From: an archaeon | Lineage (GTDB): Archaea; Thermoproteota; Nitrososphaeria; Nitrososphaerales; CADDZS01 | Assembly: GCA_902812485.1 (NCBI GenBank) | Contig: CADDZS010000001.1 | Span: forward strand, 1-64,000 | Direction of reading: 5' to 3' | Length of the DNA stretch: 64,000 nucleotides | In this document: piece after piece, positions 49,370-58,043 of the stretch | Layout of the letters: each line of letters opens with the position of its first letter | How positions within the stretch are numbered: position 1 is the stretch's first letter | Translations under genes and position numbers: made by a program | Notes under the pieces: model-generated | Told to the model about the DNA's origin: nothing | Databases searched by the model: none | Seen by the model: only the letters and a program-made list of their open reading frames with translations

Positions 49370-50092
49370 GTGCCTCGAGAAAAGAGCGAACAGTCCAATA
49401 TCAACGTCCTAAAGCTTTCGGGCTCGATCTTCTTCTCAGAGGGTTTTCGCGAAATAGTGGAGAGCATCACTCGGGTTCTGGATCGAATGAAGAAGCTAAG
49501 GCTCGTTGTTATCTGTGGAGGAGGATCTACGGCTCGCAGATATATCGAGGCAGGAAGTCGACTCGGTGTTGACAAGGCAAGTCTCGACGAGATCGGCATA
49601 CAAATCTCCCGTTTGAATGCAAGAATTTTCTCTCTTGCGCTTGGGGATCTTGCTTTCGAGCAAATACCTAGCAGCATCTCCCAGGTGGCCGAACTTATCA
49701 CCCTTTCATCTATTAGGGGGAAGAGAGTTGTCTCGATGGGAGGGCTTCATCCGGGTCAGAGTACAAACGCTGTTGCCGCGCTTGTGGCGGAGAAGGTGCG
49801 AGCAACCAAGTTCTTCAATCTGACAGATGTCGAGGGAGTGTATGACAAGGATCCTAAGAAGTTCCGGGATGCGAAGCTTCTGCGAACTGTGACTGTCGAA
49901 CAATTGGAGGGAATTCTAAGGAACGAAGCCATGTTGCCTGGCGGATACGATCTGATGGATCCAGTTGCTTTGAGACTCATTCGCAGATCAAGGATAAACA
50001 CGATTATTTTGAAATGCGGAGGGAAGGAACTTGAGCGAGCCTTGAGCGGGAGATATGACTTCGGCACGCGCATAGTATTCAAACGTGTTTGA
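49370..50092 (+). CDS. pyrH: UMP kinase, archaeal type
   Basis: Phosphorylates UMP to UDP. 240 aa of the amino-acid-kinase fold. Blocks are VLKLSGSIFFSEGF (phosphate loop), LVVICGGGSTARRYIEAG, VVSMGGLHPGQSTNAVAAL (archaeal PyrH signature), ATKFFNLTDVEGVYDKDP and MDPVALRLIRRSRI. The GTG start is followed directly by the conserved first strand. Stands alone; upstream of tRNA-Leu(CAA). Confidence 0.94.
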   Translation: MPREKSEQSNINVLKLSGSIFFSEGFREIVESITRVLDRMKKLRLVVICGGGSTARRYIEAGSRLGVDKASLDEIGIQISRLNARIFSLALGDLAFEQIPSSISQVAELITLSSIRGKRVVSMGGLHPGQSTNAVAALVAEKVRATKFFNLTDVEGVYDKDPKKFRDAKLLRTVTVEQLEGILRNEAMLPGGYDLMDPVALRLIRRSRINTIILKCGGKELERALSGRYDFGTRIVFKRV

Positions 50093-50253: not shown

Positions 50254-50414
50254 GGAGGGGTAGCGAAACAGGTCAAAGTACTGACCTGCACAAAGCCTGG
50301 TCAAACGCGGCGGTGGGGCCTCAAGCTCTGCCGAAACTCAAGATCCTAGGCGGTTACAAAGAAAAGTGATCCGCTCCCTTTAGGGGTTCGTGGGTTCGAA
50401 TCCCACCCCCTCCA
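50254..50414 (+). tRNA. tRNA-Leu(CAA), three introns
   Basis: Acceptor GGAGGGG pairs with CCCCTCC; discriminator A; T arm GTGGG-TTCGAAT-CCCAC; long variable arm TCCCTTTAGGGGTTCG. The exons only join into a sound tRNA if three inserts are removed. The first is about 27 nt in the D arm (50267-50293, hairpin CAGGTC/GACCTG). The second is about 22 nt between positions 30 and 31 (50314-50335). The third is about 26 nt on the 3' side of the anticodon stem (50347-50372). The last is bounded by a repeated GATCC, so its exact edges are ambiguous. Mature form: 86 nt, stem GCGGA/TCCGC, loop CTCAAGA, anticodon CAA. Confidence 0.82.
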
Positions 50415-50521: not shown

Positions 50522-50674
50522 ATGAAAGCCAACATTGCATGGCATCAAAAGAACCCCATGCTCAAGAACCCAACGCTGCAACAGAAGATAGGATGGCATG
50601 TAGAGCATGCAAGGAAGTGCGGTTGCAGACCCATTCCGACCTCGATTCAGAGCAAGATTAGAAAAGAATCTTAG
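50522..50674 (+). CDS. Small conserved protein with C-G-C-R-P motif
   Basis: 50 aa, MKANIAWHQKNPMLKNPTL at the start, then RIGWH-type sequence (KIGWHVEHARKCGCRPIP). I recall short proteins in bacteria and archaea with the same pattern K-N-P-T-L-x(5)-W-H-x(2)-H-A-x-x-C-x-C-R-x-x-P. They have no assigned function; His and Cys spacing suggests metal binding. A good TATA box just upstream supports expression. A longer upstream frame from 50483 is unlikely because it would include the promoter. Confidence 0.68.
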   Translation: MKANIAWHQKNPMLKNPTLQQKIGWHVEHARKCGCRPIPTSIQSKIRKES

Positions 50675-56782: not shown

Positions 56783-56979
56783 GCCGCGGTAGCTCAGCCT
56801 GGCCAGAGCGATTGCCTCGTATCCCAAAATAAGAAGAAGATGAAGGAGCAGCCGGTGGAATACTCTTTAGGACTTATAACTAGCATTAGGGAAACGGGGA
56901 GGGGAAGACTCCGCTACTTCCTTTTTGCTCCACCAGAAGGGAAAGCAATAGGTCACGGGCTCAAATCCCGTCCGCGGCT
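56783..56979 (+). tRNA. tRNA-Thr(CGT), one long intron
   Basis: Acceptor GCCGCGG pairs with CCGCGGC, discriminator T (usual for archaeal Thr), D arm GCTC/GAGC, T arm ACGGG-CTCAAAT-CCCGT. Anticodon stem ATTGC/GCAAT encloses loop CTCGTAA, anticodon CGT. The intron between positions 37 and 38 is about 122 nt (56822-56943), long for an archaeal tRNA. It contains a self-complementary pair GGAGCA/TGCTCC and one box C-like motif (AAGATGA), but no CTGA box D, so I do not call a guide RNA. Confidence 0.9.
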
Positions 56980-57853: not shown

Positions 57854-58043
57854 GCGGGGGTCGCCCAGCCTGGTCAACGGCGCAGGAGATTCTGAAATAA
57901 TCACTTTCTGCGGTTCATGTATTGCAAGTCTGCGAGACTGAGGATCAGGTTTGCGGGCATTTGACTAAACAGTTAGGCTCGCAAGATCAAGAACAGACCT
58001 CCTGTCCCTTAGGGGTTCGTGGGTTCAAATCCCACCCCCCGCA
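57854..58043 (+). tRNA. tRNA-Leu(GAG), two introns
   Basis: Acceptor GCGGGGG/CCCCCGC, discriminator A, T arm and variable arm identical to tRNA-Leu(CAG). Removing about 50 nt (57887-57936, between positions 30 and 31) and about 55 nt (57947-58001, 3' side of the anticodon stem) gives stem CAGGA/TCCTG, loop CTGAGGA, anticodon GAG, and an 85-nt tRNA. The second insert has a clear inner hairpin (TTGCGGGC/GCTCGCAA, one G-T pair). Splice edges of the second insert are ambiguous by one to three bases. Loop CTGAGGA is the usual Leu(GAG) loop in archaea, which favours this reading. Confidence 0.8.

Follow-up and report, generated by a model that had tools for sequence, protein, structure and literature searches.

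The question raised by positions 50254–50414 (plus strand) of the window, i.e., the whole 64,000-nucleotide stretch of archaeal DNA analysed here, is whether they hold a tRNA-Leu(CAA) gene split by three introns, and where exactly these introns end. The region is very probably a functional class II tRNA-Leu(CAA) gene with four exons and three protein-spliced archaeal introns at tRNA positions 14/15, 30/31, and 37/38. The Rfam tRNA model matches exactly 50254–50414 on the plus strand above its gathering score, with a poorly matched middle part that contains large inserts. ARAGORN reported neither this tRNA nor any other in the window. By hand reading, removal of intron 1 (50268–50294, 27 nt), intron 2 (50314–50335, 22 nt), and intron 3 (50343–50368, 26 nt) leaves a complete class II tRNA-Leu of 86 nt. 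Its stems are intact, comprising a 7-bp acceptor stem, a D stem GCG/CGC, and an anticodon stem GCGGA/UCCGC; the anticodon loop is CUCAAGA, and the T arm is normal.

Exon 1 (GGAGGGGTAGCGAA; 50254–50267) covers tRNA positions 1–14 and is followed by intron 1 in the D loop, in which 50269–50275 and 50282–50288 form a 7-bp inner helix. Exon 2 (50295–50313) spans positions 15–30, and exon 3 (50336–50342) spans positions 31–37, with the anticodon CAA at 50339–50341. Exon 4 (50369–50414), comprising positions 38–73, provides the long variable arm, the T arm, and the 3′ strand of the acceptor stem. All of these elements lie on the plus strand, as does the conserved upstream neighbor, a UMP kinase gene (49370–50092). 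Right after the tRNA gene comes a short reading frame, about 50 codons long (MKANIAWHQKNPMLKNPTLQQKIGWHVEHARKCGCRPIP...; 50523–50672, plus strand), that resembles a gene for a small protein.

When 60 relatives were searched at the DNA level, tRNA-Leu(CAA) turned up in five genomes belonging to the host’s family. All five have inserts at the same three sites as the window, with lengths of 22–29, 21–38, and 22–33 nt, respectively; three separate inserts within one tRNA gene are thus kept in six genomes. Once the inserts are removed, residues 1–44 are identical across the six genomes, including the whole of exons 1, 2, and 3, and the intron sequences have diverged. The gene lies directly downstream of the UMP kinase gene in six of six genomes, and this common site identifies the six genes as orthologues. 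In genomes from other families, the first two junctions are closed and the sole insert is in the anticodon loop, i.e., at the site of intron 3. Among the 400 genomes of the order that were scanned, the D-loop insert pattern occurs in six, every one in the host’s family, and the identical 5′ exon string is uninterrupted in 32, all from one other family; the rest fit neither exact pattern and are uninformative in both directions. Since the orthologues share three sites, diverged introns, and identical exon residues 1–44, and since the outgroup junctions are closed, the exon set is settled and the inserts are not due to chance. Judged from these sequences, three introns are the only reading of the gene that is compatible with the orthologues, which bears out the number given in the original prediction.

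The cut of intron 2 at 30/31 is unambiguous. GATCC repeats (50342–50346 and 50368–50372) flank intron 3, as had been noted originally, and six cuts, from 36/37 to 41/42, are therefore equivalent in sequence and give the same mature RNA. For this reason, intron 3 appears best placed at 37/38, the canonical position and a sensible choice. The original prediction had put the inserts in the D arm, between positions 30 and 31, and on the 3′ side of the anticodon stem. The first two placements agree with the sites found here (14/15 in the D arm), whereas the third corresponds to an equivalent cut made available by the repeat, with 37/38 being preferred. A non-canonical intron within the 3′ strand of the anticodon stem is unlikely: the repeat does permit cuts as far as 41/42, and the canonical central helix is weak in the window (2/4 pairs), but the repeat varies among the orthologues (only ATC or ATCC), so that the cuts common to all of them run from 37/38 to 40/41. 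Moreover, the motif at 37/38 is perfect in an outgroup orthologue, and the mature tRNA-Leu(CAA) is unchanged whichever equivalent cut is used.

The site of intron 1 is 14/15, where a two-base ambiguity is removed by the orthologue in genome G004, since its intron ends with AAG and is followed by GCCTGG. When the window is taken alone, a direct repeat of GGTCAAA, 28 bases apart, gives an alternative cut in the D arm. In the host species, the first copy (50271–50277) would then be exonic and a 28-nt intron would extend up to the second copy (50299–50305), still leaving three introns in total. Both cmscan and the structural parser picked this D arm, and the cut has 4/4 central-helix pairs, two of them G-U; nevertheless, it is very improbable. 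The orthologues lack GGTCAAA in intron 1, yet their insert is likewise at 14/15 and they share the exon GCCTGGTCAAACGC, and genomes with the uninterrupted exon string carry GCGAAGCCTGGTCAAACGCG, which argues against the alternative. In addition, the first GGTCAAA copy sits within the inner helix of intron 1. It is hardly credible that the gene is a pseudogene or an assembly artefact, a decayed tRNA with random inserts, because, although standard tRNA finders miss it, its exons are perfectly conserved across six genomes of three genera, its stems are intact, its insert sites are shared, and a second tRNA-Leu(CAA) was not seen among the tRNA genes found in the host genome, an incomplete set. An anticodon located within intron 2, where CCTCAAGC resembles the true loop, was rejected, as it is not conserved in the orthologues.

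Splice motifs were assessed by the usual rule, with two exonic bases plus one intronic base in the 5′ bulge, two intronic bases plus one exonic base in the 3′ bulge, and four base pairs between them (PMC4090602). Intron 2 has a strict central helix, in which CGGC (50308–50311) pairs with GCCG (50330–50333); 4/4 pairs are present in six of six orthologues. The central helix of intron 1 has 3/4 pairs in the relatives and 2/4 in the window. That of intron 3, with the two pairs mentioned above in the window, has 3/4 in G004 and 4/4 in a relative outside the family. Having mostly two or three of the four pairs, introns 1 and 3 represent relaxed bulge-helix-bulge motifs; hence, the motif proposed for each junction is strict at intron 2 and only relaxed at the other two. 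Among the anticodon-loop introns of the host genome, 9 of 19 show 4/4 pairs versus 1.3% at shifted registers, a figure that is somewhat biased since the parser rewarded such pairs. Free-energy folding of the full window precursor recovered the bulge-helix-bulge at none of its junctions, and the intron-2 helix has a probability of about 0.1–0.6 in the precursor folds of the relatives. Thermodynamic folding was discarded as uninformative on splicing order, as the window folds do not form the motifs. A long-range helix is present in most predicted precursor folds of the window and the orthologues: the D loop GCCTGGTC (50295–50302) could base-pair with the 5′ portion of intron 3 at 50342–50351 (GATCCTAGGC; CCAGCGCTTG in some relatives).

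For splicing itself, we infer that the precursor of tRNA-Leu(CAA) would be cut by an (alpha-beta)2 endonuclease of the host that tolerates relaxed bulge-helix-bulge motifs, and that RtcB would join the exons. Introns 1 and 2 would keep the D-stem strands (G10–G12 and C25) paired with intron sequence, so that the D arm could form only once both introns are gone. Likewise, the anticodon stem flanking intron 3 would form only after the removal of intron 2. Excision of intron 2 before intron 3 is likely because intron 2 would split and sequester the strand of the anticodon stem next to intron 3. On account of the GATCC repeat, it had been suggested originally that splicing order may matter; an order is likely from the topology of intron 2, but the repeat itself is an ambiguity of cut position rather than evidence of order.

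The RtcB ligase gene is present in the host genome (E = 6e-174). Of 20 relatives, 19 have two PF01974 endonuclease paralogues and the remaining one, whose genome is 70% complete, has a single gene; a search of the host assembly for such genes found none. In a relative, the endonuclease beta gene adjoins a nucleotidyltransferase gene, and the host contig C153 (L162) starts just before this nucleotidyltransferase gene, i.e., the contig breaks at the expected beta position. A biological absence of the endonuclease was therefore rejected for the beta subunit. The neighbor gene of alpha is also missing, which is consistent with an assembly gap. The best matches of a relative’s alpha chain are crenarchaeal enzymes, and its GKPxGxxKP stretch aligns gap-free to the A. 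pernix chain over the loop region, lysine included. This stretch is presumably the broad-specificity loop of the A. pernix enzyme. Its identification as a loop tied to broad specificity also follows PMC6379350.

A whole-genome Rfam search of the host gave nine tRNAs above the cut-off, with lengths of 92–197 nt and none uninterrupted. With the same search, the matches in three other families numbered 32, 34, and 42, mostly of 72–75 nt; one relative from the host’s family gave 20, some of them uninterrupted. A T-arm pattern search added further host genes, and all 24 of the tRNA genes assembled are interrupted. Of the host genome, the tRNA neighborhoods and one contig end were extracted. By structural parsing and hand reading, the 24 genes contain about 45 introns (1.9 per gene); these are our own counts, made without tRNAscan-SE, which may be off by a few, and roughly half of the tRNAs to be expected are missing from them. 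Three introns each are found in Leu(CAA), Ser(GGA), Arg(CCT), Val(TAC), Pro(GGG), and Leu(TAG). Within the window, tRNA-Arg(CCG) (2629–2455, minus strand) and tRNA-Leu(GAG) (57854–58043, plus strand) have two introns, and tRNA-Leu(CAG) (28391–28240, minus strand) and tRNA-Thr(CGT) (56783–56979, plus strand) have one, the latter of 122 nt. tRNA-Leu(TAG), on the minus strand of contig C143 (L169 1–900), combines introns at 30/31 and 37/38 with a T-arm insert of ~63 nt; since genes with such inserts can escape T-arm searches, the host tRNA count is a lower bound. D-loop introns near 14–16 recur in Ser(GGA), Arg(CCT), Gly(TCC), Gly(GCC), Val(TAC), and Asp(GTC) (L067, L069, L074, L080, L091, and L171), and no shared sequence was found among those of these six tRNAs. 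Recent intron transposition between tRNAs was rejected, as similarity among 36 introns is not above that of shuffles. We lean, if only slightly, toward a non-Thermoproteales lineage whose tRNA genes all have one or more introns, at the highest known density (~1.9 per gene), and in which D-loop introns near 14–16 recur. If every tRNA gene is indeed interrupted, translation would depend wholly on the splicing endonuclease.

According to PMC8450103, the published maximum is 71 tRNA introns in 46 genes, in Pyrobaculum calidifontis, a density that the host exceeds by the present count, and three introns per tRNA gene (the latter also in PMC4033280). The original statement placing three-intron tRNAs mainly in Thermoproteales fits these papers and PMC4090602, but the present host is from an order that includes Nitrososphaera-like genomes. 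tRNA-Pro(UGG) of Pyrobaculum islandicum has introns at 25/26, 37/38, and 56/57 (PMC4090602). The present gene resembles it in one canonical and two non-canonical introns, relaxed motifs, and a putative (alpha-beta)2 endonuclease, but it is a different tRNA with different intron positions, and its host belongs to an order with Nitrososphaera-like genomes rather than to the hyperthermophilic crenarchaea. Position 14/15 is absent from the intron-position list in PMC4090602, which ends in “etc.” As in P. calidifontis, tRNA introns have accumulated genome-wide in the host; unlike in that species, the 24 genes found contain ~45 introns, and an uninterrupted gene was not detected. Intron transposition has been proposed for Thermoproteales (PMC4090602), whereas introns of different host tRNAs share no sequence above shuffles. 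For Thaumarchaeota, the tRNAscan-SE 2.0 survey gives a total of 107 non-canonical introns (PMC8450103); these are of the same kind and probably from the same phylum, and the portions of the survey considered do not mention a thaumarchaeal three-intron tRNA.

The closest named record to the UMP kinase of the window is from a Nitrososphaeria archaeon (48% identity), and the G+C content of the window is 44–47%. The host is an archaeon related to soil and marine Nitrososphaeria. The single tRNA-Leu(CAA) gene is of an already known kind; the surprising part is a genome without a detected uninterrupted tRNA gene. Three-intron tRNAs are now found in a lineage whose order includes intron-poor genomes and whose family includes intermediates, and therefore tRNA intron gain and the tolerance of the splicing enzyme become testable in a single clade. 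The interrupted genes also explain the failure of standard tools to detect most tRNAs in such genomes, the completeness of which these tools may underrate.
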